Source: Cafeteria roenbergensis (taxonomy: Eukaryota; Sar; Bigyra; Bicosoecida; Cafeteriaceae). Taken from it: a DNA stretch of 64,000 nt. Below, one piece after another: positions 37,127 through 64,000 of the stretch. The notes under the pieces were generated by a model that saw nothing but the letters and a program-made list of their open reading frames with translations, was not told the DNA's origin and ran no database searches. Location: assembly GCA_008330645.1 (NCBI GenBank), contig VLTN01000027.1, forward strand, positions 186,001-250,000. The letters run 5' to 3'. The first letter of the stretch is position 1. Each line of letters begins with the position of its first letter. Both the position numbers and the translations under genes were made by a program.

Positions 37127-37653
37127 CCATCCGGTTGCAGTTTTTATTTGAAAGAGTACTGACCGAGTCCCTTGGCTCTCCAGTAAACGTCACCAAGTGG
37201 CGTCCCGTCACATCTCAGGCGCTTAGCCGCACGGGCTGTCGGATTGAGTGCGGTCCCCGCCAGCTACGACGGGAAATGCAAAAGGCCCTGGCAGAGCACG
37301 TGACCAAATGGTTACGGTTGCATTTCTCGCGCCCAGCTCAAGGCCCCGGTCGGTTCTTTTGGCACCCACGGGTGCCCTTTGTAGTGTAGGTGGCGGCAAG
37401 GCTCGAGCGCACGGCCGGGGCAGCGTCCAACGGATGCGGCAATCCGTTTCCGACGCGCTACTCCGAGGCAGGTTGAAAAGTCTCCCGCCGCTGCGCGTGA
37501 GACCCTCCCCTTGGTCCAGCTAGGCAGCGGACTTTTGGAGCGAGTATAATTTGCGTGGGATTGCGGTGCCAGCCGGGCCGTCAAGCCTTTGGCTGGCGAG
37601 TACCGGCCACGAACAACAGCACTATTGTCAAGCACAAAACCCTCAACAACATG

Positions 37654-40540
37654 TCAGAGACGCATTCGTGCGGCCAGTGCCCGTGCTGACGGGCTTCTGG
37701 CTCGCTTACTCGCCCTAACAGTGGGCGGGGGGGAAGGAGATGGCACGCTGGTGGCTTGTGGGTTTTGCGCGCGCATTTCCGCCGGTGCAGGCGCCCCACC
37801 TGGTGAAGGAGGGGCAGGAGCGGGTGTTCCTGACACGGAGGCAACCTGAAGACCCACGAACACCAGCTGCTTGACGAAACGGAGTTTGTCCATCACCAGG
37901 CTCGCCGCTGGAGAGTCGAGAACCAAGTCTCGCTTGAACGCCGCCTTGGTCGGCGTGGCCTGGTTGTGAAGCACCGAATCGATCGTCGCCAGGGACGTGG
38001 ATCCATGCTGGGCCACATCCGTGCCAGAAATCGTCTTCAAAGTGGTTTGAGCCTTCGCGTTGGCCCGCCTGGCCTGCTCCAGCAACCCCCTGAGCGACCT
38101 CAGGACATGGTCAGCACGGGCATGGGCCTCGATCTGATTGAGATGCGCGTCGGTGACGTCAAGCTGTCTTTGGTGGCGCTCGTAGCGCTCGTTGCCCGTC
38201 AAAAGGCTGTCTGTCGTCCGGACGACTAATTGGCGATTATCAAGGTCTAAAGCCATGCGTTTCGCTCGATTTGGCCCGTCGACGTCGTCGGCGAAACCGT
38301 AGTTCGTCGCCACCCGAATGATGTCCAGCTCCTTCCTCATGCGACTGGTGAACTCGGGCGCCAAGACAAACTCGTCCGAGATCGACTGCATAGCCCGCTC
38401 TACCACCGCAGCTGCGATGGCTTCGCGGTCATGGCCGCCACAGTGGGCCCCCATGCGTTCGAGGATCTTTTCAGGGTCGCAGGTGGGCTTTGAGTCGGGC
38501 GTGAAGCCCTTGGCGAAAGTGCCAGTTCGAACGAAGCCGCCAGCACGCACGGCTGGAGGTGCCGCCGCGACCCAGGCGTGGTGCCCTGCACACAGCGTGT
38601 CAGAGGGGTGCACTTTCGTCTTGCGAGCGTCCTTGAGTCGGACAAAAGTGCCGCTAGCTTTGCCCTCGCCCGAATCGATCTCCAGCTCGGCGAACACTTT
38701 GGGGCTGGCAACGCCCTTGCGGAGCCCAGTAATGGTCGCAGGGCAAGGCACAGCACCCGTAAGAGTAGCAGCCGCGGCCCCCAAGCGGATTCGCGCGAAC
38801 TCCTTGCGAAAGGCGCCGATCGGCCCGTTGTCCAAAACTTGTCGCATGTGCGAGGAGGCGCCAGGAGGCACGGCACATCGCATGCCAGCGTCCTGAAGAT
38901 GCTTGATAGACGCAACGTCGGTGTGTGCCGCGTGGCCGTCCATCAGCAAGAGTTTGGGCCGTTTCTCCCAGTCCGGGTCTTGAATCTGCTCCCACGCCGT
39001 CCAGCGATGCATGGCCTCCCTGAAGATGGACCGAGTCACCCAGCCGCTGCAGGAGGCGAAGAACAGGTGTAGGGTGCCACACGTGTACATTTGGGAGACG
39101 GTAGCCAGACTGGGCACGTGCTTCACCGACATGGCGGCGGCTCTGCGTTGCGGCTCGACCGATTTCCGGCACCTCGTTCCTGTCGAGCTACGCGAGCACC
39201 GCGCCGGAGTCGCCCCTGTCACAGCGGCAGATGCTGCTGCTGCTGCCATGGCGGGCGGGGGAGGCGCTCCGTCGCCGTTGTCACCATCAATCGTGTCGTC
39301 AGCGGCGCTGGAGGCAGCGTCACAGTCGTCACCGTCGTCAACATGATCAGCCGGCTCTTCAATGACCTCGGCATGGTCTTCAGCTGTGAGATGAATCTCT
39401 GACTTCTGTCCACAAGTGCCCGGGGGACCTGAGGGGCTGCCTGTCGGGGGTACGGGCGAGTCCGTGCAGGCAGTGAGCACGCGAACGGAGCCCTTCGATG
39501 CTCTGCTGAGGCCCTCCGCTGCTTGGACCGTCGGTGCCAGCAGTGTCCCAGCAGCTAGTTGCCTGCGTGCGTCGTCCGCAGCCTTGGTGCTCTTGGCAAC
39601 CCAAATGACGCAGCGGGTGGACTCGCAGTTCATGATCGGAAGCATGGTAATCGACTCGCGCGTGCCGCCCAGCTTGACCTTGTCCATGCGACGACGAGTC
39701 TCTGCGAGTGACAAGAGCCTCTCGTCCATGAGAAGCCACTGCAGGCACACTTCGTCCAGTTGGTACACATCTCGGCACCTCCCGACACGAGCAAGCTCAG
39801 AACTCAACACCTCAGTGTAGGATTTCGCTGCTGAAAGCTGCTCCGCGTCGCTGCGCGACCCGGCATTTGCCGTTGTGTGCAAAAGCTGCAAGCGGGAGAA
39901 CTCTCCATGCCGTGACATGCGCCGCCACAGCCTTTTGCCAAAAGGGTCGGTCGTCTCTTCCTCGGTGTAGCGCCTGACCAGGGCGTCCAGCGCCGGTGGG
40001 CTGAGGCCCGCTTTGACTGGCTGATCATCTCCTTCCGTCAGGAGCAGCTGCAAGCAGTTGCTGCGCGCGCAGGCGCATGCAGTGCGAGTGACGGCCAAGC
40101 TGTCTCCAGGCATCGCGCTCCGCAGCAGAGTGATATCGCCGTACAACGACGACTGCAAGGTAAACACACACACAAAGAATACACAATGCCCATGGGCGGC
40201 GTCTCATGGGCAGGTCTGCAAGGCGGGTAGCGAGGGGACTCACTACAACGAACTCGTGGTCCACCGTCGAGTCAGGTCTGTACGACAGCTCGGCCGCCCG
40301 CGCCCGCAGTCCAGGCGCCGTCCAGTTCCGCATGCTGCCATATTTCGACCGGATGGTGGACTCGGGAACCCCTGTGGCCTCGCATTTGGACGGCCAAGAG
40401 AAATGTGCTGAACTTTCGACCAACTTTGCGAGGTATTCCCCGACTGCTTGGAGCTGCTTTCTCCCGCGCCTAACGTGAGCAATGTGCTTCTTGGTTCTGG
40501 GCAAGGACCGTCGCCGATCCGTTGCCTTGGTGGCGAGCAT
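37654..40540 (-). CDS. DDE_1/pogo-like transposase, unit 1
   Basis: Two exons: 40540-40244 and 40152-37654, phase 0, with a 91-base intron that contains a CA repeat; 931 residues. Exon 1 encodes a helix-turn-helix-like DNA-binding region (VGEYLAKLVESSAHFSWP, then GVPESTIRSKYGSMRNW), as in pogo/psq elements. Exon 2 holds the DDE_1 catalytic core: YQLDEVCLQWL (first Asp), LLLMDGHAAHTDVASIKHL (second Asp in the DGHxxH signature) and QVLDNGPIGAFRKEF (third Asp, equal to the pogo QPLDxxxFGxxK motif). An acidic, low-complexity insert lies between the first two. The C-terminal 150 residues are charged and Ser/Pro-rich. The frame is whole in this copy, so it may be active or recently so. The start at 40540 is chosen because upstream Mets fall in or beyond the terminal repeat. 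Confidence 0.75.
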
Positions 40541-40552
40541 GGGCCCGTCAGA

Positions 40553-40600
40553 GTGGCGATTTGCATTCTGCAACCATCTTGGTGCTCGCAACCGGTTGGT
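40553..40600 (-). repeat. Right terminal inverted repeat of the transposon, unit 1
   Basis: On the minus strand this reads ccaaccggttgcgagcacca and continues agatggttgcagaatgcaaa. It matches the left end pieces at 37,127-37,140 and 37,291-37,332 with a few changes. The unit 2 equivalent (54,405-54,445) matches the left end better. Confidence 0.5.
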
Positions 40601-40995
40601 TCGCCTCCGGCACTCTTGCGCGCCGGAGCGAGCAGCAAGACGGCCGCCCACCGCCCCGTACTGCTCCCCGCTCCTTCGTCCCGAGTTTGCTCCGCCCATC
40701 TTGGGGTTGGTGCTGCTCGGCCCCGTGGATCGTGAGCTGCGGCAGAGGCTGCCGTTCCGTTCCCGAGGTCGGTTTCGCGAACTCGGCGCCCGACGCAGCA
40801 CTGGCTCCCGCCCATACAGTGCCTACGTGGTAGGGCGGCAGCTTGCAAATCGCCGGGCTTTGTGCGGGGCGGGGGAAGCGCTGCGGAAGGACTGCAGCGT
40901 TCTCGCGCGCAGCGGCTTGTCCAGGCCAGCTTGCTTCACGAACCGCCGCCCCCCGCAGTGCGCAGCGCCCGAGGCCAGTGGCCCCTCCCACGACC
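40601..40995. promoter_or_regulatory. Upstream region of gene B, unit 1
   Basis: About 395 bases between the transposon end and the gene B start, well conserved in unit 2. The promoter of gene B must lie here or in the transposon. No core motif was recognised. Confidence 0.35.
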
Positions 40996-43252
40996 ATGGC
41001 AGACCGTCCGCCATCATCTTCGTCGTCGTCGTCTTCGTCTTCGCAGGCGAAGGCAAGCAGCCGGCGCGCCCCCAGGCACGGGCGCGAGCGCGAGGGCGGC
41101 ATAGCCGGCGATGCCCCGACTGGCAAGTGATCCCGCCGAGAGGGAGCTGGCGATGCCGGTGCCTCTGCTGCCCAGCCCGCCGTGACGGAGCGCCAGCGTC
41201 AAGCCGGAGAAGCGGATGCACATCGTCCCGCTGTGCGCAAGCCGCCCAAGGAGGAAAAGAAGCACGAGAGTTCCAAGGCGGGCAAGAGGGCCACGAAGCG
41301 CAGCAAGAACGCTGGCAATGCCAATCGTCATCGACGTGGAGAAGCAGCCGACGCCGCCGCCAGGGGACCAGCTGCAGCCGACCATTCCGGTGCCGCGGCA
41401 GCAGCGGCTTCCTCAGCCTCCCCAAGTCCTGCTGCCGCCGTTGCTAGTGGAGCAGCTCCGCCCCGCAGTGCCGTGGCCCTTGGAGGAGGGATTGGACTTG
41501 GCGCAGAGCCAGCTCCGCAAGCTGCAGATGAGCAGCACGCATCCCGAGTGTCGCTCGAAGATGCTGAGGACGACGTGAGTGGCCTGATCTCTGGTGCCCT
41601 GGTTTTCAGCGAAACCCCGCCTTCACAGGTCCGCTCCCGGGTAAAGAAAGCCCAAAAAGCGATCCAGTTCTTCAGCAAACTTCGTATCGCCGACGGGCTC
41701 AAATCGACCGGCAAAAAGAAGCGCTTCAACGCTGTCCTGGGCAAGCTTGGCACCGCGAGCGTTCGGCTCGGAGCCGATGCCCCCATCAAAGACGTGCTGA
41801 GCAGGGCCAAGGTGGCACTGAAAGAGTCAGTCGACATAAATCAGCTGGCCGAGTGGCACCGTCTTGGGCACCTTCGGGGCGTCGCTGCAGGCTTGGCAGA
41901 GGCCCTGGCCAAGCCGTGCACCATGAGAACCGTGAAGGACCGCGCCAAGGAGCTGCTATTGGAGGAAAAGCGCGAGGCCGAGGAGCAGGCCGAGAAGGCC
42001 AAGCACGAGGCCAAGAAGAAGTCGAAGGCGCGAAAGTCTCGCCGAAAGGTGCTGAACATGCTGGACGCAGCCGCCAGGGGGCCTGCTGCAGCCGACCATT
42101 CTGGTGCCGCGGCAGCAGCGGCTTCCTCAGCCTCCCCAAGTCCTGCTGCCGCCGTTGCTAGTGGAGCAGCTCCGCCCCGCAGTGCCGTGCCTTGGAGCAG
42201 GGGTTGGACTTGGCGCAGAGCCAGCTCCGCAAGCTGCAGATGAGCAGCACGCATCCCGAGTGTCGCCGAAAGATGCCGAGGACGACGTGAGTGGCCTGAT
42301 CTCTGGTGCCCTGGTTTTCAGCGAAACCCCGCCTTCACAGGTCCGCTCCCGGGTAAAGAAAGCCCAAAAAGCGATCCAGTTCTTCAGCAAACTTCGTATC
42401 GCCGACGGGCTCAAATCGACCGGCAAAAAAGAGGCGCTTCAACGCTCTCTGGGCAAGCTTGGCACCGCGAGCGTTCGGCTCGGAGCCGATGCCCCCATCA
42501 AAGACGTGCTGAGCAGGGCCAAGGTGGCACTGAAAGATTCAGTCGACATAGATCAGCTGCCCGAGTGGCACCGTCTTGGGCACCTTCGGGGCGTCGCTGC
42601 AGGCTTGGCAGAGGCCCTGTCCAAGCCGTGCACCATGAGAACCGTGAAGGACCGCGCCAAGGAGCCGCTATTGGAGGAAAAGCGCGAGGCCGAGGAGCAG
42701 GCCGAGAAGGAAAAGCGCGAGGCCAAGAAGAATTCGGAGGCGCGAAAGTCCCGCCGAAAGGTGCTGAACATGCTGGACGCAGCCATTGGCGTTGTGCACA
42801 AGAACTTGCTGGAAGCAACGGCGGCCAAGCTTCCTGAACGAGGAAAAAAATCGCTCAAGAAGTTCGTTGTCGCACAGATGCAGCAACCTGGCGGCCTCTC
42901 TGCTGCCGTCCGTATGGCTGCGAGCTCGCCAGCGGAGCTGTCTGTGGTGTCGCAAGCCGTGGAGCAGCCCTGGTGGTTGCTTTGGCCGGGTACCGGAGCT
43001 CGAACAACTTTGGCAAACACTGTGGCTTGGGATATCGAAGCGTTGACCAAGCCGATCAATCCTGGAAATGATCGAAATCTAGGGCTGCTGTTCAACCTGG
43101 TTGGCGTCGAAACGCTACCGCTTAACCTTGCGAGCGCATGTGGCTCTGCTTTCTGCGGCAGAGCTGCACCTCGCCGATCGTCAATCGTTTTGCGCCCTCC
43201 GAGAAGCGAGCGCACCCGGTGCTCAAGCCCACCTGGGCTTCCCGGGTCGTAA
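40996..43252 (+). pseudogene. Gene B, unit 1: CR-header-like protein, broken, with duplicated header
   Basis: Copy of gene B that looks broken in about two places. The N-terminus is the Ser-run and basic region described for the intact copy. The main difference from unit 2 is a direct internal duplication of about 0.7 kb, so the Ala-rich linker and header domain are present twice. It is otherwise about 98 to 99 per cent like the second copy, so the breakage is young. It belongs with the CR (Crinkler/RHS)-like set on the basis of the header it shares with gene C. Confidence 0.6.
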
Positions 43253-43760
43253 CCCGTTCCGTCTCGCGCGCGCTCCCCGTGTGGTGTGTGCGTGAACTCG
43301 TTTGACCCACCCTCCCGTCCTTCGGGCGACCCTGGCGGTCCCCGCCGAGCCGAATCTTAAGCCACTAGGTCAGCATCGGCGATCCTCGCCTCCACTCTGC
43401 CAACCAGAAACAAGACAGCAGTGACGGCAGCGACCGTCCACACGCTTCGAGAGGCGGCGCGTTCAAAGCGTGCCAGCCTCGTTGAGGCTCTGCGCCAAGG
43501 AGCTCCGGAGCCATCCGGTGGAGCAGCGAGCGAAGAATCTCGCATGCCAGCACTCCATGGGCCTTTTGTTGGTGTCTCGAGCGGAGATCAGCTCCTGAAA
43601 GGGCTGAGCTCCGCGATCAAGCGCTGGGCAAGGAAATCGGACATCAAGGAGTGGGGAGGAAAGCTTGAGTGAACGTCTGGTCCGTCTTGCCGCAAGCGCT
43701 GACGAATGACTCGCTCAGCTCCGTTGCGCCCCTCCAGTGCCTTTCCAGTGCCCGAACAGT
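43253..43760. other. Region between gene B and the long LINE, unit 1
   Basis: About 508 bases conserved in unit 2. A short plus-strand frame at 43,421-43,672 (83 residues, with RSKRASLVEALRQG and GVSSGDQLLKGLSSAIKRW) is also open in unit 2, where it extends to 128 residues. It looks protein-like and may be a remnant of a longer gene B, but this is uncertain. Confidence 0.4.
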
Positions 43761-45632
43761 CGAATGAACATCGTTGGGGGCGGCCGAAAAACTCGCGTCG
43801 CCATGCCACACACTTGATCCACAGACTCACCAAGAACCAATCCAGCACGTCCATCGCCAATCAGTCACCAACCACGCCAAAGTCCCAAGCCCAATCCCAG
43901 ATCCCTCCCATCACACCGCCACGAGCCGCCACTCAGCCGCCCCTGCTCACCGCATGCGCTCCACCTGCTGTCGCAGGTACTGCGCCTGCCCGATCAGCTG
44001 GGTCGCCAGTCCCTTGGCGATGACCTCGTTCAGCCTCGACAGCCAGCGGAAGGCCCAGCGCGCACGCTCCCTCGGCCTGTCAACGAAGGCCGTGTCCGCC
44101 ACCTTCTTGAGGAAGGCGAACGCCGCCGATCCCATGCGTCCCGTGGTCGTGACGACGAAGGGCACAATGGAGCTCAAGTTGTCCTTTGTAGCTGAGCTCT
44201 TCTTGTACTCCCTCATCTTGTCACTCTCACGGCGCTCGAGAAAGGCGTCCATGCTCTGCAGGCCCTGCGTCACGTAGGACTTGCTCACCGCCGAGGTGAT
44301 CTGCACGTCGACGAGACGGGTGGTCTCGAAGTCAACGTGCACCCGCAGGTCCGGTCGCTTGCGCGCGGCCTCGCTGGACCCCGGCTGGGATCCGAAGCGC
44401 GTCTGCCCGTCCTGCCAGCTGGAGGGCTCCACCACCGACTGCAGCCCCGCCGAGCGCACGGCCGCGTGCAGGACGTCGCGGACGTCGTTGTGCGCCCGGA
44501 TGGTGGAGCCCTTGCCGCGCAGCGGCAACGCGCCAGGTGGTGTGCCACGCCCGAGACCCCGCCGATGTGGACGGTGCCTCTCGCGGGTGGTGTCCCGCTG
44601 CACGCACGCGCAGTTGATCGACACGCCGTCCGGCACCACGTGGTCTGCCTCGGAGGCTCCGATGCGGTGGCGGGTGACCACCGCGAACTCCTCGTCTGTG
44701 AGCCCGCGGGGCCCCATCATCGTGTTGCGGAGCCAGTAGTGTGTTCCCGGCACGCATGCCTCTCGGAACGCGACCAGGTCGCTCATGACGCGGAACATGG
44801 CCGGGTCGTCGATGTTGGCGACACGCTTCTCCGTCGTGCCCTTGGCCAGCGCCTCGGCCCTGCATCGTGCTGTGCAGGCCCTGCGCGCCTTGGCCAGACG
44901 GTGCAGGAAGACGCACTCGTGCTTGATGCGCAGCATGTCGTCGTGGTGCAGCATCATCTTGCGCTGCCAGGGCGCCTCGACTTGCTCGTTCGCCAGCTTC
45001 ACCACCCCGTCGCCGTACAGGCACTTGCGGAGCTTGGTCCGCAGCGACCCCGGCAGCTGATGCTTGGCGGCAGAGGCGCGGGCGGTCGTGCTTCGCGCGT
45101 TTTCGCATTGCCTGCCGATCCCAGGACGTGGTAGACCTCGTCTTTTTGCCAGGCTCGTTGACGCCTCCGGAAGAACTGGCGGTTTGCCTGCCCGCGAATT
45201 GAATCGCCCTGCCGGGCAGGCCCGAATGCGCGCCAATCGCCAAGGCCGAGGCACGAGACGACTCTCCCCAATCGCGACGCCACGCCGCGCGCGATTCCCA
45301 CTCCGTGCCCCGGGGAAGCTCGTGCCCCCGCGGCCTCTGTGCGCAAGGCCAAGTCCCTTCCGCTCTCCGTCCAGTGCAGGACGCGTGGGTCCTGGCAGCA
45401 CGCCGAGTCGTCGCCTCCAGCCAACTTCATCCATGAGCATCCACCAGCCAATCCTCTTCGCGTGTGCCTTCGGCCAGGCATTGCTTGCCCACCTTCGTCG
45501 GAAACAGGTGTGGCTGGGGTGAGCTCCGAAGCAACGCCACAGAGGCGCATCATCTCCCGCTAGCTGCCCTCTCGTCTGCTCCGCGGGGCGGCGGGCGAGC
45601 ACCGCAAGCCGAGTGCTGGGCATAGACTGCAC
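43761..45632 (-). mobile_element. LINE fragment (3' end of non-LTR retrotransposon ORF2), long form, unit 1
   Basis: The minus strand encodes the C-terminal part of a LINE ORF2 protein; the stop is at 43,947 and 3' untranslated sequence runs to 43,761. Visible parts are a helical region (QRKMMLHHDDMLRIKHECVF), LTDEEFAVVTRHRIGAS, a Cys/His cluster (CACVQ, then HHLARCRCG in the unit 2 copy), IRAHNDVRDVLHAAVRSAG and RPDLRVHVDFE...LVDVQIT. The order Cys/His cluster, RxHN-type motif, RPD, then D is the pattern of the restriction-like endonuclease of R2-type LINEs. The reverse transcriptase is missing, so the copy is 5'-truncated. A local frame change around 44,520-44,590 scrambles the Cys/His cluster here. 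Upstream of about 45,110 the frame does not look LINE-like. Confidence 0.65.
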
Positions 45633-46236
45633 AGGTTCACGACAATGTGCTGATTGCCCACCCGGAACTCCTGGCCGCGACTCCCATGCTCAGGGGCGGG
45701 GCTTGCGGTGGCGTCGCCTCCGGCGGGGTTGCCTCCCCAGCCAGCGCCGTTTCAGGCCCCTGGCCGCCGGCATTTGCTTTGATTCAGCACAGGTCTTGCA
45801 TGTGAGAGGGTGGACGCTGGGGTGTGTGGGGCTGGAGCGGTCCTGGGGCGGTTCAGGAGCCTGCGCGACAGCGGCGGCAAGCAGCGTCCGTGCTTCGCAA
45901 CGCCCGCCGAGCGCGCAAGCCACACTCGAGCACGATCACACCATGCGCCATGCACGGAAACAAGTATGGCCAAATCTGCGGGTCGACTGGGCGATGGCGG
46001 GCTGCAGGCGCGGCCCTGTTCGGCCGCGCGTGAATTGTGTGTTTGCTCGCGGTTCTGCTATAGTTATCTCTGCTCTCGACTAAATCGGACAGAGCTGCAG
46101 GCCAGCAGAAAAACGTGACGAGGGCGAACTAGCCGAACGCACTCGGCCTTGCTGCGCCCGCGGACTCCCAGGAGGCCGCCCGCGACGCCGAAAGGCCCAC
46201 AGAGGGCAACCTTCTTCGCTTTTTGCCGAGCTTGCC
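45633..46236. promoter_or_regulatory. Upstream region of gene C, unit 1
   Basis: About 600 bases between the long LINE fragment and gene C, conserved in unit 2. It is lower in GC near 46,020-46,090. It should hold the gene C promoter. No motif was recognised. Confidence 0.35.
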
Positions 46237-49200
46237 ATGCTGAGCCAGGTCTCACGGGGCGCAGGGCGGGCGTCGCGGGCTGTGCTGCCCGCATGCGCCC
46301 GGACGGCCGATGCGGTTCGGCACCATTGCCTCAAGCCAGTCGCCGTCCTGAGCGGCGCAGGCGAGCCCCTGTGCCGCACCCTCTGGAGCAGAAGAGCCTT
46401 GGTGCTTCACGACAGCACGGGCGGCGCGCGGCCCGTCCTGGTGCGCCCTCTGAGCTCCGCGGCGTCGGAGACGGACTCCCAGCTATTGTCGACTGACGCC
46501 GAGCGGTGGGCTGACAACCACCTGCCCAGAGAATCTGCAAGGCGCGACGCCGTTGGTCTGGCTCTGGGAGCACTCTCGCTTTCCTCCGTCTCGCCGACGG
46601 ACGCTCGAGCGCGGGTGGAGCTCGGGCAAGACTTTTTTTTGTTCGTTCTGGAAATGGCTGCCGTCAAGGGGCTCCGCTCTGCCGACAATGAGGACATCGT
46701 CAAGCTGCTTGGAAGACTCGGCACCGCCAGCATGGAGCTCGCCCACTCAACCGACATCAACGCCGTGCTTCAGCATGCCGGGGTGACTCTGGCCATGCCC
46801 GGCGGCGAGGCTCTGCTGGCCAAGTGGCACCGGCTGGGCCACCTGCAGTCCGTGGCGGGAGGCTTCGCGGAGGTCATGGCCAAGCCATCCACCATCGCCA
46901 CAGTGGAGACGCACGCCAAGAAGCTGCTCTTGGAGGCCAAGCGCGAGGCCAAGCGCGAGGCCGAGGAGCAGGCCGAGAAGGCCAAGCGCGAGGCCGAGGA
47001 GAAGGCCGAGAAGGCCAAGCGCGAGGCCGAGGAGCAGGAACTCCGGCTTGCTCCGGCTCACACGCTGGCTTCGCTTTTGGACAGCTGCCTATTGGTCATC
47101 AACGGACGGCAAGGCAAAGCCCTCTTGGATGTGCTCATCCTGCGAGTTCAGGCAGCGCTGGTCAGCAGGCTGCCACCCGACAGCCCGGTGATGGCAGGTC
47201 TGCCACCGGAAGTCGTTCGCCTCAGCAGGCGGCTCAAGCAGCAGTCTGTCGACAACGCCTGCAAGCTGGCAAAGGAGACTGGCGCTGCAGTCCCGCAGGA
47301 GGATCTGACTCCAGCTGGCCTCCAGACTGTGGCAGACTGCCTGATAAACACGCTCAAGTCGTGCCATGACCTCAGCTGGCTGGCCAGCCAGCCCGCACTC
47401 TTTGACATCCTGCACTGCACGGCTACGGCCTGTCCCCCGGTGTTTCTGGCTGAAGGAGGCCCGACTGCCAAAGTTGCGGAGAACCTACGTCCTGACGTTT
47501 ACTTCAAGAGGCGCAAAAAAACTGGAACGGCTCTTCAGTCAGCCATGCATTCAATTGCTCAGAGCCAAGTCAATCAGGCAACTCTTTCCTGTTCACGGGG
47601 CCCCGTGGCGCTGGCAAGACGCAGACGCTGCTCTCGATGGGTTTTGCCAACGCGTTTCTGGGAGCCGCTCACGGCGAAGAGCGAAGCACTGTGATCTTGC
47701 TGCGCCCATATGCCGGACCGGAGCAGGCTGGCGGCAGACTGGGTGACAAGCACTCAACGGACAACCTCGAACTCGCTGAAGGTCCAGCCCGGGATCCGCA
47801 CAACGTGGTGTGGAGAGCCATGCTGCGGCTGGGGTACCTCGACGCCCACCTGGGTGGCAAGTCTGGGCTGGAGGTCGCCGCACACCGCATCAGGACGATG
47901 GGCAAAGCGCAAACAACTGCCATTGAATTAACCAGCATAGGAATGCTGGGAGACATGCTCGATGGGCATGAGCGCTCTCCTAGGATCAGCATGACCTTGT
48001 GCTTCGACGAAAGCCAGAATTACTTCTTTCACAGCGGCGTGCTCAGCAAGTTTGTAAACCTGGTGGAGCGTTTTTACACCTCGAACATCCCGATGAGGAT
48101 GGTGATCACTGGCAGCTCAGCTGTCCTTCCTCGCCTCGTCAGTGGAATGGAATCTGATGCAGTGGTGACGCAGCAATACAACATGCACGGCGCTGCAATG
48201 CGCGACGGACTCTTGAGTATGCCTGAGTTCGGGGACGCAGTGGCACCCAGCTTCCCCTTCAGGCCGTACAGGCATGGATTCAACGTGAGCAAGTTGAGCG
48301 TTCTCGATCCGGTCCCCTATCTCGAGGAATCTGAGGGACTGAGCTTCCTGCGGACATCCTGGAGGCAGCACTCTGCGCATTTGAGGCGCTTCATGGAAAC
48401 TTTGCCTGCGTCGGACGATGAGGCTCATGCAATCGTCGCGCCCTTGGTGACGGCAACCAACGGCAGCCCTCGGGCTCTCCTTCAGCTGCGGTGGGGCGAC
48501 GTTGTCCAAGGCGGCAGAGCAAGGGCGGCCGAAGCTGCCCTCAGTGATCAGTTTCGACGATTCAGGCAGCTCTTCGTTACTTCCGAGCGTGTCCCCGCGC
48601 GCCGGGTCCTCCTGAAGGCAGTCGGGTTGGCTGCCCTCGGGAAGCTCAAGCCGGAAGCATCCGACGCAAGCACTGGGCTGGCAACGGCTGCTGGGGCGCA
48701 TGTTGGACAGTCGAGCTCAACCGTCGAAACCTCGTTGGAATACGTGTCCCTCAAGTCGCTCCTGAGCGCGGCGCTGTCAGCGTCGCAGCGTCTCTTTGGG
48801 GACGACGCGGCGCACACCAAGGAGCTGATGAAGTTCGAGTCGTCTTTCAGCAGCAGCAGCAGAAGCATGCAACGGCTACGTGCTGACATCGAAGCGGCTG
48901 CAGACTTTTGGCATGAAGTCGGCTTCTTTCGGGGCCGGACTCTCACAAGCTCGTTCGTCATGCCCGGTCAAGCGTGGAGGTCCTTTGCAGTGCATCTGGT
49001 TCTCGCTGGATCCTCTCTGACCGCGGTTGAGATGATGGCCCTGGTCAGCCCTGCAAGCAAAATTTTGAGCGACCACTTCGAGCGCTTGCTGGCTGCCGAG
49101 CTGCTCCACAGTGGTTTCCAGGCGTTCGTGTCGGCTTGCATGGCTAGGTTTGCGCCAGGGCGAGAGTGCTCCAGTCGGCTGATGGAGCGGCTTGCCGCAA

Positions 49201-50962: not shown

Positions 50963-50963
50963 T

Positions 50964-54841: not shown

Positions 54842-56392
54842 ATGGCAGACCGTCCGCCATCATCTTCGTCGTCGTCGTCTTCGTCTTCGCGGGCGAAGGC
54901 GAAGGCAAGCGGCCGGCGCGCCCCCAAGCGCGGGCGCGAGCGCGAGGGCGGTGTTGCCGGCGATGCCCCGACTGGCAAGCGATCCCGCCGAGAGGGAGCT
55001 GGCGATGCCAGTGCCTCTGCTGCCCAGCCCGCCGTGACGGAGCGCCAGCGTCAAGCCGGAGAAGCGGATGCACATCGTCCCGCTGAGCGCAAGCCGCCCA
55101 AGGAGGAAAAGAAGCACGAGAATTCCAAGGTGGGCAAGAGGGCCACGAAGCGCAGCAAGAACGCTGGCAATGCCAAGCGTCATCGACGTGGAGCAGCAGC
55201 CGACGCCGCCGCCAGGGGGCCTGCTGCAGCCGACCATTCTGGTGCCGCGGCAGCAGCGGCTTCCTCAGCCTCCCCAAGTCCTGCTGCCGCCGTTGCTAGT
55301 GGAGCAGCTCCGCCCCGCAGTGCCGTGGCCCTTGGAGCAGGGGTTGGACTTGGCGCAGAGCCAGCTCCGCAAGCTGCAGATGAGCAGCACGCATCCCGAG
55401 TGTCGCCGAAAGATGCCGAGGACGACGTGAGTGGCCTGATCTCTGGTGCCCTGGTTTTCAGCGAAACCCCGCCTTCACAGGTCCGCTCCCGGGTAAAGAA
55501 AGCCCAAAAAGCGATCCAGTTCTTCAGCAAACTTCGTATCGCCGACGGGCTCAAATCGACCGGCAAAAAGAGGCGCTTCAACGCTCTCCTGGGCAAGCTT
55601 GGCACCGCGAGCGTTCGGCTCGGAGCCGATGCCCCCATCAAAGACGTGCTGAGCAGGGCCAAGGTGGCACTGAAAGATTCAGTCGACATAGATCAGCTGG
55701 CCGAGTGGCACCGTCTTGGGCACCTTCGGGGCGTCGCTGCAGGCTTGGCAGAGGCCCTGTCCAAGCCGTGCACCATGAGAACCGTGAAGGACCGCGCCAA
55801 GGAGCCGCTATTGGAGGAAAAGCGCGAGGCCGAGGAGCAGGCCGAGAAGGAAAAGCGCGAGGCCAAGAAGAATTCGGAGGCGCGAAAGTCCCGCCGAAAG
55901 GTGCTGAACATGCTGGACGCAGCCATTGGCGTTGTGCACAAGAACTTGCTGGAAGCAACGGCGGCCAAGCTTCCTGAACGAGGAAAAAAATCGCTCAAGA
56001 AGTTCGTTGTCGCACAGATGCAGCAACCTGGCGGCCTCTCTGCTGCCGTCCGTATGGCTGCGAGCTCGCCAGCGGAGCTGTCTGTGGTGTCGCAAGCCGT
56101 GGAGCAGCCCTGGTGGTTGCTTTGGCCGGGTACCGGAGCTCGAACGACTTTGGCGAACACTATGGCTCGGGATATCGAAGCGTTGACCAAGCCGATCAAT
56201 CCTGGAAATGATCGAAATCTAGGGCTGCTGTTCAACCTGGTTGGCGTCGAAACGCTACCGCTAAACCTTGCGAGCGCATGTGGCTCTGCTTTCTGCGGCA
56301 GAGCTGCACCTCGCCGATCGTCAATCGTTTTGCGCCCTCCGAGAAGCGAGCGCACCCGGTGCTCAAGCCCACCTGGGCTTCCCGGGTCGTAA
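54842..56392 (+). CDS. Gene B, unit 2: intact CR-header-like nuclear protein
   Basis: Whole frame of 516 residues from the Met at 54842. Residues 5-16 are a Ser run. Basic clusters follow (KASGRRAPKRGRERE, KRSRREG, KRHRRG) that should act as nuclear localisation signals. An Ala/Ser/Pro linker leads to the header domain at about residues 195-310: QVRSRVKKAQKAIQFFSKL, LLGKLGTASVRLGAD, EWHRLGHLRGVAAGLAEAL. A charged helical stretch follows (EKREAEEQAEKEKREAKK). The header aligns with the gene C header at roughly half of its positions. After it comes a helical region and WLLWPGTGARTTLANTMARD, which faintly resembles a degenerate P-loop. The end is Arg/Pro/Ser-rich and may be read-through of lost sequence. 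No nuclease motif is present. A partner or decoy for gene C is possible but unproven. Confidence 0.6.
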   Translation: MADRPPSSSSSSSSSSRAKAKASGRRAPKRGREREGGVAGDAPTGKRSRREGAGDASASAAQPAVTERQRQAGEADAHRPAERKPPKEEKKHENSKVGKRATKRSKNAGNAKRHRRGAAADAAARGPAAADHSGAAAAAASSASPSPAAAVASGAAPPRSAVALGAGVGLGAEPAPQAADEQHASRVSPKDAEDDVSGLISGALVFSETPPSQVRSRVKKAQKAIQFFSKLRIADGLKSTGKKRRFNALLGKLGTASVRLGADAPIKDVLSRAKVALKDSVDIDQLAEWHRLGHLRGVAAGLAEALSKPCTMRTVKDRAKEPLLEEKREAEEQAEKEKREAKKNSEARKSRRKVLNMLDAAIGVVHKNLLEATAAKLPERGKKSLKKFVVAQMQQPGGLSAAVRMAASSPAELSVVSQAVEQPWWLLWPGTGARTTLANTMARDIEALTKPINPGNDRNLGLLFNLVGVETLPLNLASACGSAFCGRAAPRRSSIVLRPPRSERTRCSSPPGLPGS

Positions 56393-56900
56393 CCCGTTCC
56401 GTCTCGCGCGCGCTCCCCGTGTGGTGTGTGCGTGAACTCGTTTGACCCACCCTCCCGTCCTTCGGGCGACCCTGGCGGTCCCCGCCGAGCCGAACCTTTA
56501 GCCACTAGGTCAGCATCGGCGATCCTCGCCTCCACTCTGCCAACCAGAAACAAGACAGCAGTGACGGCAGCGACCGTCCACACGCTTCGAGAGGCGGCGC
56601 GTTCAAAGCGTGCCAGCCTCGTTGAGGCTCTGCGCCAAGGAGCTCCGGAGCCATCCGGTGGAGCAGCGAGCGAAGAATCTCGCATGCCAGCACTCCATGG
56701 GCCTTTTGTTGGTGTCTCGAGCGGAGATCAGCTCCTGAAAGGGCTGAGCTCCGCGATCAAGCGCTGGGCAAGGAAATCGGACATCAAGGAGTGGGGAGGA
56801 AAGCTTGAGTGAACGTCTGGTCCGTCTTGCCGCAAGCGCTGACGAATGACTCGCTCAGCTCCGTTGCGCCCCTCCAGTGCCTTTCCAGTGCCCGAACAGT
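56393..56900. other. Region between gene B and the long LINE, unit 2
   Basis: Counterpart of 43,253-43,760. It contains the short plus-strand frame 56,426-56,812 (128 residues) that shares its C-terminal 83 residues with unit 1. Confidence 0.4.
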
Positions 56901-58770
56901 CGAATGAACATCGTTGGGGGCGGCCGAAAAACTCGCGTCGCCATGCCACACACTTGATCCACAGACTCACCAAGAACCAATCCAGCACGTCCATCGCCAA
57001 TCAGTCACCAACCACGCCAAAGTCCCAAGCCCAATCCCAGATCCCTCCCATCACACTGCCTCGAGTCGCCACTCAGCCGCCCCTGCTCACCGCATGCGCT
57101 CCACCTGCTGTCGCAGGTACTGCGTCTGCCCGATCAGCTGGGTCGCCAGTCCCTTGGCGATGACCTCGTTCAGCCTCGACAGCCAGCGGAAGGCCCAGCG
57201 CGCACGCTCCCTCGGCCAGTCACCGAAAGCCGTGTCCGCCACCTTCTTGAGGAAGGCGAACGCCGCCGGTCCCATGCGTCCCGTGGTCGTGATGACGAAG
57301 GGCACAATGGAGCTCAAGTTGTCCTTTGTAGCTGAGCTCTTCTTGTACTCCCCCATCTTGTCCTTCTCACGGCGCTCGAGAAAGGCGTCCATGCTCTGCA
57401 GGCCCTGCGTCACGTAGGACTTGCTCACCGCCGAGGTGATCTGCACGTCGACGAGACGGGTGGTCTCGAAGTCGACGTGCACCCGCAGGTCCGGTCGCTT
57501 GCGCGCGGCCTCGCTGGACCCCGGCTGGGATCCGAAGCGCGTCTGCCCGTCCTGCCAGCTGGAGGGCTCCACCACCGACTGCAGCCCCGCCGAGCGCACG
57601 GCCGCGTGCAGGACGTCGCGGACGTCGTTGTGCGCCCGGATGGTGGAGCCCTTGCCGCAGCGGCAACGCGCCAGGTGGTGTGCCACGCCCGAGACCCCGC
57701 CGATGTGGACGGTGCCTCTCGCGGTGGTGTCCCGCTGCACGCACGCGCAGTTGATCGACACGCCGTCCGGCACCACGTGGTCTGCCTCGGAGGCTCCGAT
57801 GCGGTGGCGGGTGACCACCGCGAACTCCTCGTCTGTGAGCCCGCGGGGCCCCATCATCGTGTTGCGGAGCCAGTAGTGTGTTCCCGGCACGCATGCCTCT
57901 CGGAACGCGACCAGGTCGCTCATGACGCGGAACATGGCCGGGTCGTCGATGTTGGCGACACGCTTCTCCGTCGTGCCCTTGGCCAGCGCCTCGGCCCTGC
58001 ATCGTGCTGTGCAGGCCCTGCGCGCCTTGGCCAGACGGTGCAGGAAGACGCACTCGTGCTTGATGCGCAGCATGTCGTCGTGGTGCAGCATCATCTTGCG
58101 CTGCCAGGGCGCCTCGACTTGCTCGTTCGCCAGCTTCACCACCCCGTCGCCGTACAGGCACTTGCGGAGTTTGGCCCGCAGCGACCAAGGCAGCTGATGC
58201 TTGGCGGCAGAGGAGCGGGCGGTCGTGCTCCGCGATGTCTCGAAATGCCTGCCGATCCCAGGACGTGGTAGACCTCGTCTCTTCTGCCCGGCTTGTTGAC
58301 GCCTCCGGAGGAACTGGCTGTTCGCCTGCCCGCGAATTGAATCGCCCTGCCGGGCAGGCCCGAATGCGCGCCAATCGCCAAGGCAGAAACACGAGACGAC
58401 TCTCCCCAACCGCGACGCCACGCCGCGCGCGATTCCCACTCCGTGCCCCGGGGAAGCTCGTGCCCCCACGGCCTCTGTGCGCAAGGCCAAGTCCCTTCCG
58501 CTCTCTGTCCAGTGCAGGACGCGTGGGCCTTGGCAGCACGCCGAGTCGTCGCTTCCAGCCAATTTCATCCATGAGCATCCACCAGCCAATCCCATTGTTC
58601 GGTGCCTTTGGCCAGACATTGCTTGCCCACCTTCCTCGGAAACAGGTGTGGCTGGGGTGAGCCGCGAAGCAACGCCACAGAGGCGCATCATCTCCCGCTA
58701 GCTGCCCTCTCGTCTGCTCCGCGGGGCGGTGGGCGAGCACCGCAAGCCGAGTGCTGGGTATAGATTGCAC
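56901..58770 (-). mobile_element. LINE fragment, long form, unit 2
   Basis: Same 5'-truncated LINE ORF2 end as in unit 1, stop at 57,087. This copy keeps the Cys/His cluster in one frame: INCACVQ, TVHIGGVSGVAHHLARCRCG, then HNDVRDVLHAAVRSAG and RPDLRVHVDFE. It is therefore the best copy for reading the endonuclease domain. The frame stays open to 58,691, but sequence beyond about 58,200 does not look like LINE protein. Confidence 0.65.
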
Positions 58771-59377
58771 AGGTTCACGACAATGTGCTGATTGCCCACC
58801 CGGAACTCCTGGCCGCGACTCCCATGCTCAGGGGCGGGGCTTGCCGCGGCGTCGCCTCCGGCGGGGTTGCCTCCCCAGCCAGCGCGATTTCAGAGCCCTG
58901 GCCGCCGGCACTTGCTTTGATGCAGCACAGGTCTTGCACGTGAGAGGGTGGACGCTGGGGGGTGTGGGGCTGGAGCGGTCCTGGGGCGGTTCAGGAGCCT
59001 GCGCGACAGCGGCGGCAAGCAGCGTCCGTGCTTCGCAACGCCCGCCGAGCGCGCAAGCCACACTCGAGCACGATCACACCATGCGCCATGCACGGAAACA
59101 AGTATGGCCAAATCTGCGGGTCGACTGGGCGATGGCGGGCTGCAGGCGCGGCCCTGTTCGGCCGCGCGTGAATTGTGTGTTTGCTCGCGGTTCTGCTGGC
59201 ATGGTTATCTCTGCTCTCGGCTAAATCGGGCAGAGCTGCAGGCCAGCAGAAAAACGTGACGAGGGCGAACTAGCCGAACGCACTCGGCTTTGCTGCGCCC
59301 GCGGACTCCCAGGAGGCCGCCCGCGACGCCGAAAGGCCCACAGAGGGCAACCTTCTTCGCTTTTTGCCGAGCTTGCC
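58771..59377. promoter_or_regulatory. Upstream region of gene C, unit 2
   Basis: Counterpart of 45,633-46,236 and nearly identical to it. No motif was recognised. Confidence 0.35.
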
Positions 59378-62300
59378 ATGCTGAGCCAGGTCTCACGGGG
59401 CGCAGGGCGGGCGTCGCGGGCTGTGCTGCCCGCATGCGCCCGGACGGCCGATGCGGTTCGGCACCATTGCCTCAAGCCAGTCGCCGTCCTGAGCGGCGCA
59501 GGCGAGCCCCTGTGCCGCACCCTCTGGAGCAGAAGAGCCTTGGTGCTTCACGACAGCACGGGCGGCGCGCGGCCCGTCCTGGTGCGCCCTCTGAGCTCCG
59601 CGGCGTCGGAGACTGACTCCCACCCGTTTTCGACAAAAGCCGAGCGGTGGGCTGACAACCACCTGCCCAGAGAATCTGCAAGGCGCGACGCCGTTGGTCT
59701 GGCTCTGGGAGCACTCTCGCTTTCCTCCGTCTCGCCGACGGACGCTCGAGCGCGGGTGGAGCTCGGGCAAGACTTTTTTTTGTTCGTTCTGGAAATGGCT
59801 GCCGTCAAGGGGCTCCGCTCTGCCGACAATGAGGACATCGTCAAGCTGCTTGGAAGACTCGGCACCGCCAGCATGGAGCTCGCCCACTCAACCGACATCA
59901 ACGCCGTGCTTCAGCATGCCGGGGTGACTCTGGCCATGCCCGGCGGCGAGGCTCTGCTGGCCAAGTGGCACCGGCTGGGCCACCTGCAGTCCGTGGCGGG
60001 AGGCTTCGCGGAGGTCATGGCCAAGCCATCCACCATCGCCACAGTGGAGACGCACGCCAAGAAGCTGCTCTTGGAGGCCAATCGCGAGGCCAAGCGCGAG
60101 GCCGAGGAGCAGGCCGAGAAGGCCAAGCGCGAGGCCGAGGAGCGGGAACTCCGGCTTGCTCCGGCTCACACGCTGGCTTCGCTTTTGGACAGCTGCCTAT
60201 TGGTCATCAACGGACGGCAAGGCAAAGCCCTCTTGGATGTGCTCATCCTGCGAGTTCAGGCAGCGCTGGTCAGCAGGCTGCCACCCGACAGCCCGGTGAT
60301 GGCAGGTCTGCCACCGGAAGTCGTTCGCCTCAGCAGGCGGCTCAAGCAGCAGTCTGTCGACAACGCCTGCAAGCTGGCAAAGGAGACTGGCGCTGCAGTC
60401 CCGCAGGAGGATCTGACTCCAGCTGGCCTCCAGACTGTGGCAGACTGCCTGATAAACACGCTCAAGTCGTGCCATGACCTCAGCTGGCTGGCCAGCCAGC
60501 CCGCACTCTTTGACATCCTGCACTGCACGGCTACGGCCTGTCCCCCGGTGTTTCTGGCTGAAGGAGGCCCGACTGCCAAAGTTGCGGAGAACCTACGTCC
60601 TGACGTTTACTTCAAGAGGCGCAAAAACTGGAACGGCTCTTCAGTCAGCCATGCATTCAATTGCTCAGAGCCAAGTCAATCAGGCAACTCTTTCCTGTTC
60701 ACGGGGCCCCGTGGCGCTGGCAAGACACAGACGCTGCTCTCGATGGGTTTTGCCAACGCGTTTCTGGGAGCCGCTCACGGCGAAGAGCGAAGCACTGTGA
60801 TCTTGCTGCGCCCATATGCCGGACCGGAGCAGGCTGGCGGCAGACTGGGTGACAAGCACTCAACGGACAACCTCGAACTCGCTGAAGGTCCAGCCCGGGA
60901 TCCGCACAACGTGGTGTGGAGAGCCATGCTGCGGCTGGGGTACCTCGACGCCCACCTGGGTGGCAAGTCTGGGCTGGAGGTCGCCGCACACCGCATCAGG
61001 ACGATGGGCAAAGCGCAAACAACTGCCATTGAATTAACCAGCATAGGAATGCTGGGAGACATGCTCGATGGGCATGAGCGCTCTCCTAGGATCAGCATGA
61101 CCTTGTGCTTCGACGAAAGCCAGAATTACTTCTTTCACAGCGGCGTGCTCAGCAAGTTTGTTAAACCTGGTGGAGCGTTTTTACACCTCGAACATCCCGA
61201 TGAGGATGGTGATCACTGGCAGCTCAGCTGTCCTTCCTCGCCTCGTCAGTGGAATGGAATCTGATGCAGTGGTGACGCAGCAATACAACATGCACGGCGC
61301 TGCAATGCGCGACGGACTCTTGAGTATGCCTGAGTTCGGGGACGCAGTGGCACCCAGCTTCCCCTTCAGGCCGTACAGGCATGGATTCAACGTGAGCAAG
61401 TTGAGCGTTCTCGATCCGGTCCCCTATCTCGAGGAATCTGAGGGACTGAGCTTCCTGCGGACATCCTGGAGGCAGCACTCTGCGCATTTGAGGCGCTTCA
61501 TGGAAACTTTGCCTGCGTCGGACGATGAGGCTCATGCAATCGTCGCGCCCTTGGTGACGGCAACCAACGGCAGCCCTCGGCTCTCCTTCAGCTGCAGTGG
61601 GGCGACGTTGTCCAAGGCGGCAGAGCAAGGGCGGCCGAAGCTGCCCTCAGTGATCAGTTTCGACGATTCAGGCAGCTCTTCGTTACTTCCGAGCGTGTCC
61701 CCGCGCGCCGGGTCCTCCTGAAGGCAGTCGGGTTGGCTGCCCTCGGGAAGCTCAAGCCGGAAGCATCCGACGCAAGCACTGGGCTGGCAACGGCTGCTGG
61801 GGCGCATGTTGGACAGTCGAGCTCAACCGTCGAAACCTCGTTGGAATACGTGTCCCTCAAGTCGCTCCTGAGCGCGGCGCTGTCAGCGTCGCAGCGTCTC
61901 TTTGGGGACGACGCGGCGCACACCAAGGAGCTGATGAAGTTCGAGTCGTCTTTCAGCAGCAGCAGCAGAAGCATGCAACGGCTACGTGCTGACATCGAAG
62001 CGGCTGCAGACTTTTGGCATGAAGTCGGCTTCTTTCGGGGCCGGACTCTCACAAGCTCGTTCGTCATGCCCGGTCAAGCGTGGAGGTCCTTTGCAGTGCA
62101 TCTGGTTCTCGCTGGATCCTCTCTGACCGCGGTTGAGATGATGGCCCTGGTCAGCCCTGCAAGCAAAATTTTGAGCGACCACTTCGAGCGCTTGCTGGCT
62201 GCCGAGCTGCTCCACAGTGGTTTCCAGGCGTTCGTGTCGGCTTGCATGGCTAGGTTTGCGCCAGGGCGAGAGTGCTCCAGTCGGCTGATGGAGCGGCTTG

Positions 62301-63064
62301 CCGCAACAGCCTCGACGGATAGCGCCGCTGCTGAACTGGTCAACCATCGCCATGTCGCCAAGGGTGGAGAGTCGCTTCCTTCGCCGCCACCTCTGGAGCC
62401 AATCATGGTGTGGGGAGGCACAAGCAAGGATCCCAAAGTTGTGGCGGCTGACAAGGACGATGAGCCGATCAAGCCGTGGCAGCTCCTCAAGCATCGGCAT
62501 GACTGGGGCGGCGTGGACGTCATGGTTGTGTTCGCGGTCAAGGACTGCGTTTACGTCCTTCTGCTCCAGTCCAAGGCATTTGAGCCTTCGCTGTCCGGTG
62601 CGCCGAAGGAGATGACTGCCGCGACAGCGGCGAACTTGCAGACTGGCATGTTCAACATGGCGACGGAGCTACGGACTGCCGTCGTTCCAAGTCCTGAGCC
62701 CCGCAAGGCCTGGAGCGACATCCCCGGCAAGCGGTCGCTGATAGCCAGAATCATGGACAATGACATTGCCAAGGGATGCACCGAAATGGTCGTGTGCTCG
62801 TCCGTCATCACCACGAAGGTTATCAAGGAGACCCCACAAGGCTGCAAAGCCGACCTGTTCCGGATTCCCGAGTCACCGGAGACCTTCGTTCTCGAAGAAG
62901 GCGAGCCAAGCGCCACTGGCAGCGCCGCAGAGAAGCCACGGAGCGTCCAGGTGTGGGACCTGCGGCTGCCGGCAGACAGCATGGTCCTGCGAAAGTTGAT
63001 GACGAAAGATATGGAAGATGCGTTGAGTGTGTGTGGGATCGAGTTGCCCAGCAGCGCCGAATGA
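59378..63064 (+). pseudogene. Gene C, unit 2: CR-like P-loop ATPase with nuclease-like end, broken
   Basis: Second copy of gene C, almost identical in sequence to the first but with about two breaks of its own. The parts are the same: presequence-like N-terminus, header, coiled-coil stretch (shorter by one repeat block than in unit 1), Walker A TGPRGAGKT near 60,700, Walker B-like region near 61,100 and the nuclease-like GGVDVMVVF / LLLQSKAF near 62,510-62,580. The very high identity to unit 1 shows that duplication or gene conversion is recent and that loss of the frame is more recent still. Confidence 0.55.
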
Positions 63065-64000
63065 ACATCGTTGGGGAGGGCAATAACTCGCATCGCCATG
63101 CCACACACTCGATCCACAGACTCACCAAGAACCAATCCAGCACGTCCATCGCCAATCAATCACCAACCACGCCAAAGTCCCAAGCCCAATCCCAGATCCC
63201 TCCCATCACACCGCCACGAGTCGCCACTCAGCCGCCCCTGCTCACCGCATACGCTCCACCTGCTGTCGCAGGTACTGCGCCTGCCCGATCAGCTGGGTCG
63301 CCAGTCCCTTGGCGATGACCTCGTTCAGCCTCGACAGCCAGCGGAAGGCCCAGCGCGCACGCTCCCTCGGCCTGTCAACGAAGGCCGTGTCCGCCACCTT
63401 CTTGAGGAAGGCGAAGGCCGCCGGTCCCATGCGTCCCGTGGTCGTGACGACGAAGGGCACAATGGAGCTCAAGTTGTCCTTTGTAGCTGAGCTCTTCTTG
63501 TACTCCCTCATCTTGTCATTCTCACGGCGCTCGAGAAAGGCGTCCATGCTCTGCAGGCCCTGCGTCACGTAGGACTTGCTCACCGCCGAGGTGATCTGCA
63601 CGTCGACGAGACGGGTGGTCTCGAAGTCAACGTGCACCCGCAGGTCCGGTCGCATGCGCGCGGCCTCGCTGGACCCCGGCTGGGATCCGAAGCGCGTCTG
63701 CCCGTCCTGCCAGCTGGAGGGCTCCACCACCGACTGCAGCCCCGCCGAGCGCACGGCCGCGTGCAGGACGTCGCGGACGTCGTTGTGCGCCCGGATGGTG
63801 GAGCCCTTGCCGCAGCGGCAACGCGCCAGGTGGTGTGCCACGCCCGAGACCCCGCCGATGTGGACGGTGCCTCTCGCGGTGGTGTCCTGGAACCAGCAGC
63901 TTCGGAGCGTTGCGCGCCGCGCCGTCGGGAGGGCCGAGCCCTGCGCCTCGGAGGCTCCGATGCGGTGGCGCCGCACACACCCCGTGCGTCAGCATCGATC
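63058..64000 (-). mobile_element. LINE fragment, short form, unit 2 (runs to right edge)
   Basis: Same short-form LINE as at 49,952, with stop at 63,242 and endonuclease motifs intact (HHLARCRCG, HNDVRDVL, RPDLRV). It again adjoins the end of gene C. The window ends within its truncated 5' part, just before the place where unit 1 passes into the next transposon. Confidence 0.65.

Follow-up and report, generated by a model that had tools for sequence, protein, structure and literature searches.

A tandem array of transposon, LINE and CR-like gene modules inside a Cafeteria roenbergensis contig, probably derived from chromosome ends

The window analyzed here, a stretch of 64,000 nucleotides from the bicosoecid Cafeteria roenbergensis (assembly GCA_008330645.1), comprises bases 186001-250000 of contig VLTN01000027.1 (C27; 446,957 bases) and carries a tandem array in which a DNA transposon (T), two genes (B and C) and two fragments of a long interspersed nuclear element (LINE) recur in a fixed order. 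After extension of the window by 90 kb rightward, the tandem was found to consist of two complete units and a third T copy alone. We suggest that the array is probably a block of modules that came from telomeres and now lies inside a chromosome, with T at its borders and recombination as the cause of its duplication; the route inward is inferred. This interpretation draws on a genome-wide search (167 contigs, 36,303,456 bases), in which the LINE is located at contig ends with a fixed polarity, as in telomere-associated non-LTR (long terminal repeat) elements, and in which genes sharing a header with B and C lie at many of the same ends. The main value of the analysis is the link of a chromosome-end LINE with these Crinkler-RHS (CR)-like genes.

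Each unit contains, in order, T, gene B, an antisense LINE fragment, gene C and a second LINE fragment. Unit 1 covers 37106-50942 (13,837 bp) and unit 2 covers 50943-64049 (13,107 bp), while the third T copy (T3) lies at window-equivalent positions 64050-67554 (C27:250050-253554). The sequence-only reading had proposed a 13.1-kb repeat of five parts with nearly two units and the beginning of a third; the repeat and the order of its parts hold, but the third does not begin inside the window, since T3 starts 50 bp past its end. Beyond T3, the rest of the right extension contained no more unit matches. The features are as follows.

37115..40604 (left end approximate), minus strand: T1, a DDE_1-type transposon with an open reading frame (ORF) at 37654-40203 (849 aa; Pfam DDE_1, E=7.1e-5), forming the left border of the array.
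40605..43760, plus strand: gene B region of unit 1, a header gene with an internal duplication and stop-to-stop frames at 41131-42243 and 42056-43252.
43061..43421, strand not assigned: dispersed 360-bp repeat in the 3' part of the gene B region of unit 1, recognized by genome matches.
43761..45058, minus strand: LINE fragment of unit 1 (the "long LINE"), 5'-truncated, with its 3' end at 43761; its similarity to the full-length copies L124 and L125 stops at 45058.
45059..46300, plus strand: upstream region of gene C, common to other header-gene loci and overlapping the gene C stop-to-stop frame.
46084..49958, plus strand: gene C of unit 1, with overlapping stop-to-stop frames at 46084-47694 and 47496-49958.
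49952..50863, minus strand: second LINE fragment of unit 1 (the "short LINE"), whose 3' end abuts the gene C stop codon.
50943..54450, minus strand: T2, a DDE_1-type transposon with an ORF at 51948-54050, assigned by Pfam DDE_1 and self-BLAST.
54451..56900, plus strand: gene B region of unit 2, with a single frame at 54680-56392 (570 aa).
56901..58198, minus strand: LINE fragment of unit 2, whose right end is an approximation taken from unit 1.
59225..63064, plus strand: gene C of unit 2, in pieces, with stop-to-stop frames at 59225-61264 and 61529-63064.
63058..63970, minus strand: short LINE of unit 2, from self-BLAST, with T3 next to it.

In the self-BLAST, 42064-50893 corresponds to 55202-64000 with 98.3% identity and 37106-42072 to 50943-55924 with 95.1%. 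Repeats of 5-9 kb at 95-98% identity are far beyond chance, and the array is confirmed as real; the tandem cassette that had been claimed is borne out as two units by self-comparison of the window and its extension. Unit 1 is longer because its gene B has an internal duplication of about 714 bp (41350-42072 and 42064-42784 in the self-BLAST). With T excluded, 130 substitutions and 11 gap runs (763 bp) separate the two units over 9,587 aligned columns, and therefore neither is a plain assembly copy of the other. It could be proposed that the tandem is false, two alleles or loci of a diploid having been joined by the assembler or repeats having been mis-joined. The organism appears to be diploid, Redundans was used to discard redundant allelic contigs, strain BVI was sequenced to a PacBio coverage of 45x (excerpts of PMC6972860), and related contigs terminate within the cassette, all of which would suit such a join. 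However, the units are separated by these substitutions, gap runs and internal duplication, T1 is nearer to a T copy on contig C39 (99.4% identity) than to T2 (94.8%), the strains are reported to have >99% average nucleotide identity (excerpts of PMC8547959), and gene-plus-LINE tandems are also present on contigs C76 and C46. We consider a false tandem highly improbable.

These other arrays, which were read in part only, agree with the earlier claim of an amplifying locus. C76 carries two gene C copies 8,850 bp apart, a second gene-plus-LINE array, and C46 carries a pair of near-identical header genes at a distance of 5,194 bp, with three LINE fragments at equal spacing and a 1,388-aa frame with an AAA_16 match. 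Moreover, contig C6 ends in T followed by gene B, while C39 begins and C72 ends in gene C, LINE and T; these borders therefore indicate further cassettes cut by contig ends. On C46, the LINE lies beside a B-type upstream region with no T and about 50 extra bases at the site. The LINE-B order thus probably predates the entry of T, although T may instead have been lost on C46, a site that is paralogous rather than allelic.

The divergence between the units is uneven, with 93.2% identity at 45099-45598 and 99.8-100% over 47095-50094, and the longest substitution-free run is 1,820 bp (48490-50310) compared with a maximum of 832 in 2,000 uniform simulations. This pattern suggests gene conversion, recent exchange or homogenizing by polishing; short-read polishing alone could produce the similarity of the two C genes.

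The LINE fragments in the units are 5'-truncated and antisense to the genes. The full-length copy L124 has an uninterrupted frame of 1,769 aa with an RVT_1 match (3.4e-21), its reverse transcriptase being nearest to L1 ORF2 and R2 among solved structures, and on these protein similarities we classify the LINE as a non-LTR retrotransposon. It matches RVT_1, L1 and R2, not a Penelope-like reverse transcriptase, a comparison in which no Penelope-specific model was applied. A CxC...HH...CxC pattern and an RPD motif are visible in the frame and may represent the restriction-like endonuclease of R2/CRE type; the 330-aa C terminus had one irrelevant match only (E 1.8) in the PDB. What had been called a long LINE is thus a non-LTR element, but its copy in the array is only about 1.3 kb and stops at 45058 when compared with the full-length copies.

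A word at the 3' end of the LINE has 278 exact copies in the genome, and the same word reversed has none. Among the 100 3' ends that were listed (contigs C1-C32), 86 lie at contig termini, with the 5' end directed outward in 84 of them. Of the 86, 37 are at most 20 kb away from the start of a contig (35 on the minus strand, 2 on the plus strand) and 49 are at contig ends (all plus); minus at the starts and plus at the ends means that the 5' end of the LINE faces outward. For 12 of the 86 (on C7, C18, C22 and C31), the contig size is only bounded, under the assumption of size-ordered numbering. Counted by site, 30 of 31 contig ends in this list have solely the expected polarity. A second list of 57 LINE matches, the best 40 of 251 candidates scored, reaches contigs up to C162 and gives the expected polarity for 39 of 41 terminal matches on contigs >60 kb and for 24 of 26 contig ends, the remainder being 9 internal matches (4 on C27, 5 on C46) and 7 on small contigs. 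The copies are stacked head-to-tail, each abutting with its 3' end the 5'-truncated end of its inner neighbor. On C28, a 72-bp satellite (L125:5858-7360) lies beside a terminal LINE, and the start of C13 (L045) has a short-period repeat of about that length.

Telomeric repeats are present at some of the LINE ends. A set of 40 short stretches from the LINE matches, together with the gene C loci and the window, yielded 55 junctions, of which 50 are distinct; L088, which has no recognizable 3' end, and junctions with less than 45 nt upstream were left out. TTAGG occurs at most 22 nt upstream of the LINE end in 8 of the 50, compared with 0.04 expected (background of 0.0008 per 22-mer, from random draws in a 164-kb stretch of C27), and at 23-45 nt in none. 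Two TTAGR units stand shortly before the LINE end at six places, with none in the control. The sequence TTAGRTTAGRTTAG has a single occurrence in the genome, at base 1 of C57, pointing outward; this contig start (L132, C57:1-1200) consists of (CTAAC)3, 15 bases of TTAGG type, directly on a truncated 313-bp LINE that is stacked on a 245-bp LINE. We also found a candidate telomerase reverse transcriptase on C17 at about 528-531 kb (L130), where an open frame of 1,916 aa matches Telomerase_RBD (3.9e-8) and the solved telomerase reverse transcriptase 6d6v (E 0.0031). A search for telomere arrays of TTAGGG and TTTAGGG was negative, as the genome has no 4xTTAGGG and no 3xTTTAGGG. The LINE seems to become attached to telomeres. 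Taken together, the findings suggest that a bicosoecid has a TTAGG-like telomere and a LINE of chromosome ends; on the simplest reading, telomerase and the LINE would take turns at these ends. The search for telomere repeats that the sequence-only reading had called for gave the C57 start and TTAGG junctions elsewhere, and no TTAGG at the LINE junctions of C27.

Genes B and C share a header with 47 matches in the genome, counted as 46 places after a short fragment (C51:912) was dropped; both header copies of the unit 1 gene B (C27:227614, 47% identity, and C27:228326, 44%) are included in the 46. At the ends of contigs >60 kb, 20 of 21 header places are transcribed outward. Gene C has the layout of header, charged repeat, P-loop ATPase and a D...QxK nuclease-like motif, the motif order being GPRGAGKT, CFDESQ and D...QSK. 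The copies in the window are split over frames, which may be due to frameshifts or introns, whereas those on C76, C30 and C20 have open frames of 1,238-1,267 aa. In the nine-row gene C alignment, GPRGAGKT is found in three rows (six gaps, as the gene models differ), CFDESQ in eight, and QSK in six, with one QST and two gaps at the last motif. In that of the C46-type relative, GPxGxGKT is found in all nine rows and RVQVKV, at the D...Q-x-K motif, in eight (one gap). The AAA_14 match of gene C (E=0.0017) is below the Pfam cut-off and the AAA_16 match of the C46-type relative (2.6e-8) above it. By these motifs, we assign a P-loop nucleoside triphosphatase (NTPase) to both.

The nuclease-like part had no Pfam nuclease match in either gene C or its C46-type relative, and the predicted structural models are of low confidence (predicted local distance difference test, pLDDT, 34.4 and 44.1). 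Blocks in the ATPase part of the latter model, poor as it is overall, reach about 70-80, and its best Foldseek match is the Walker-type ATPase 2qen (E 2.4e-4, template modeling scores 0.14/0.35). No Crinkler, RHS or RHSP model was among the families listed at E up to 5 from a Pfam copy that should include such models. Gene B, including the 570-aa frame of unit 2, had no Pfam domain. The proposal of a pair of CR-like genes holds in part: gene C looks like a CR protein by its motifs and gene B carries the header of gene C, but B lacks a domain and the Pfam search lists no Crinkler or RHS model. Homologues of gene C comprised eight proteins, all from Cafeteria (best 7,995 candidates scored), and the C46 type had 13 homologues, 12 of them assigned to Cafeteria (best 7,985 candidates scored). 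We suggest that the CR-like proteins are probably ATP-regulated host nucleases, perhaps acting against invading DNA. As to the 360-bp repeat in the gene B region, most of the 61 listed matches of the query 42785-43760 cover 43061-43421 (best 40 of 119 candidates scored). On C29, gene C is interrupted by a copy of this repeat whose 3' border, in the gene sense, has an AG, so that an intron-like insertion is possible.

Gene C and the LINE in front of it occur together at several loci. At 10 of 11 gene C copies (two each on C27 and C76, and one each on C30, C32, C39, C20, C52 and C72; the exception is C29), the stop codon is followed within about 104 bp by the 3' end of a LINE, with six junction types. 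On C76, C30 and C32 the gene ends in GAATGAACATC, followed by the LINE, and the 8-nt TGAACATC is common to the gene end and the LINE 3' terminus. This looks like repeated entry of the LINE at one place, aided by base pairing, but some of the six junction types may share one event, and TGAACATC at the gene C ends could be the remnant of an older LINE. An origin of the CR genes as LINE-made retrocopies was ruled out, as the genes point opposite to the LINE. It could also be proposed that the LINE inserts sequence-specifically at the 3' ends of CR-like genes anywhere, in the manner of insertions at the trypanosome retrotransposon hot spot genes; that it is abundant at contig ends would then follow from the locations of the genes, and C27 would be an ordinary internal array. 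The six junction types so close to the gene C stop, the 8-nt match and the C27 junctions free of TTAGG would fit this proposal. However, many LINEs sit on other LINEs or on TTAGG-like residues with near-strict polarity, and the LINE of C57 is capped by a telomere-type repeat; we regard this explanation as unlikely.

T is about 3.5 kb long, and its DDE_1 scores of 22.9 and 24.2 bits, just above the Pfam cut-off of 22, uphold its earlier classification as a DNA transposon, here of the DDE_1 (pogo/Tigger-like) class. The genome contains 15 near-full copies with 91-100% identity, three of them within C27. The inverted terminal repeat, as judged by eye, is about 23 bp, and the end words were found in 11 of the 13 ends on each side, left and right. 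T is located at both outer borders of the C27 block and at the cassette borders on C6, C39 and C72. That the cassette moves whole, either as a composite DNA transposon bounded by two T copies or as a Terminon-like giant retroelement of LINE and CR gene, would accord with the same T/B border on C6 and the same C-LINE-T borders on C39 and C72 amid differing outer flanks, with the joint occurrence of gene C and its front LINE, and with CTGCCGC near both T borders on C72, which may reflect duplication or chance. However, the outer borders have no consistent target-site duplication, the CR gene, being opposite to the LINE, is not in the LINE sense transcript, and the C46 relative has no T, so we ascribe very little probability to movement of the whole cassette. 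At the start of C25 (L129, C25:1-1000), the contig begins with a right T end followed by an oppositely oriented LINE piece, perhaps another T-bounded block.

Returning to the telomere-derived block, we propose the following course of events. The LINE would reverse-transcribe itself onto an exposed chromosome 3' end, and telomerase would re-cap the truncated product. The gene C end with TGAACATC would serve as a repeated landing site, and unequal recombination would multiply the gene-plus-LINE modules. T copies on both borders would supply homology, or transposition ends, by which the block of modules could be placed inside a chromosome, and gene conversion would afterwards even out the two C genes. 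In a wider form, held tentatively and as somewhat doubtful, telomerase and the LINE might jointly build the chromosome ends, with a lineage-specific family of outward-transcribed CR-like genes interleaved, their 3' ends matching the LINE RNA end and acting as points of re-entry, while T would carry modules inward and seed arrays like that of C27. If true, chromosome ends would be a nursery of CR-like genes.

Several observations weigh against this course. In the list of 100 LINE ends, 14 have an internal position (4 in C27, 10 elsewhere), and two terminal ends (C10:11391-12043) are reversed, forming the sole exception among the 31 terminal sites; in the second list, C39 and C72 point the wrong way, which we read as cassettes cut by contig ends. 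Similarly, 17 of the 46 header places are internal or could not be placed, eight lie on contigs <60 kb, and the header gene of C6, counted as outward at an end, belongs to a cut cassette. TTAGG is lacking at 42 of the 50 junctions, those of C27 included, and therefore the telomeric origin of the C27 block rests on its family, not on its own junctions. C57 is the only contig start with a TTAGR triple, 20 other contig ends (500 bases each) had no evident telomere repeat, several of them being inside LINE sequence, and the arrays of TTAGGG and TTTAGGG type are absent, as stated above. For pogo elements, a TA target-site duplication is expected. By eye, no convincing duplication was found for T, whose exact ends are uncertain, and TA was not seen at the nine copies whose two borders could be read. 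A single crossover between T1 and T3 was rejected as the origin of the duplication. T2 and T3 are 97.7% identical, and the informative sites (150 with T2=T3, 51 with T2=T1, 29 with T1=T3) have no switch along T2 from T3-like to T1-like, as such a crossover would predict; by this comparison, a crossover within T is not shown. No contig end is closer than 193 kb to the array itself (223 and 193 kb), so the earlier guess of a subtelomeric locus is wrong for C27 but holds for many of its relatives, the LINE and many header genes being at contig ends.

Outside the array, a mitochondrial carrier gene (35774-36928, minus strand; Mito_carr, 2.8e-53) adjoins T1. Further to the left, 27829-30068 holds 24 copies of a 93-bp (31-residue) repeat that are 97% alike and open in several frames; the frame 25888-30129, which spans them, had no Pfam match. 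An Rfam scan of the window at gathering thresholds gave no matches.

In the titles and opening lines of abstracts that were consulted, with lower-ranked papers and subscription journals outside the scope, we met no prior report of a link between chromosome-end LINEs and CR genes, nor of a TTAGG-like telomere with a terminal LINE in a bicosoecid. The main text of PMC6972860 does not contain "telomer", and that of PMC8547959 contains neither "telomer" nor "crinkler", although another count of its text gives "telomer" twice. Virophage (EMALE) and Ngaro insertions are other mobile elements in the genomes of the same species (excerpts of PMC8547959) and were not seen to be involved in the array.

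CR stands for Crinkler-RHS, proteins that combine an NTPase with a restriction endonuclease (REase) and whose genes occur in free-living eukaryotes (excerpts of PMC5289972). Like Crinkler and the trypanosome RHS proteins, those of Cafeteria would combine a P-loop NTPase with a nuclease-like domain in a multigene family linked to transposable elements (excerpts of PMC5289972). Unlike them, they have their own header, no Pfam Crinkler or RHS model listed, and named homologues solely in Cafeteria among the best candidates scored. CR-like genes tied to contig-end LINE stacks in a free-living, culturable stramenopile offer a testable setting for their multiplication beside retroelements.

Elements of chromosome ends have been described as GilM/GilT in Giardia, Zepp in Chlorella, MoTeR1 in Pyricularia and SART/TRAS in Bombyx (excerpts of PMC10088271), and HeT-A in Drosophila is a chromosome-end element without telomerase. 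The Cafeteria LINE resembles these elements, most of which are accompanied by telomerase-made repeats, in accumulating at ends, but differs in its stramenopile host, in the short TTAGG-like seeds at some junctions and in LINE stacks interleaved with CR-like genes. The Terminons of bdelloid rotifers, with their Athena elements, form 5'-truncated head-to-tail arrays with short telomeric repeats at the junctions and host genes captured between them (excerpts of PMC6431247). Whereas Terminons are Penelope-like and endonuclease-deficient, the Cafeteria LINE has an L1/R2-like reverse transcriptase; it is like them in its 5'-truncated head-to-tail copies, in the short telomeric repeats at junctions and in the genes that lie between neighboring copies.

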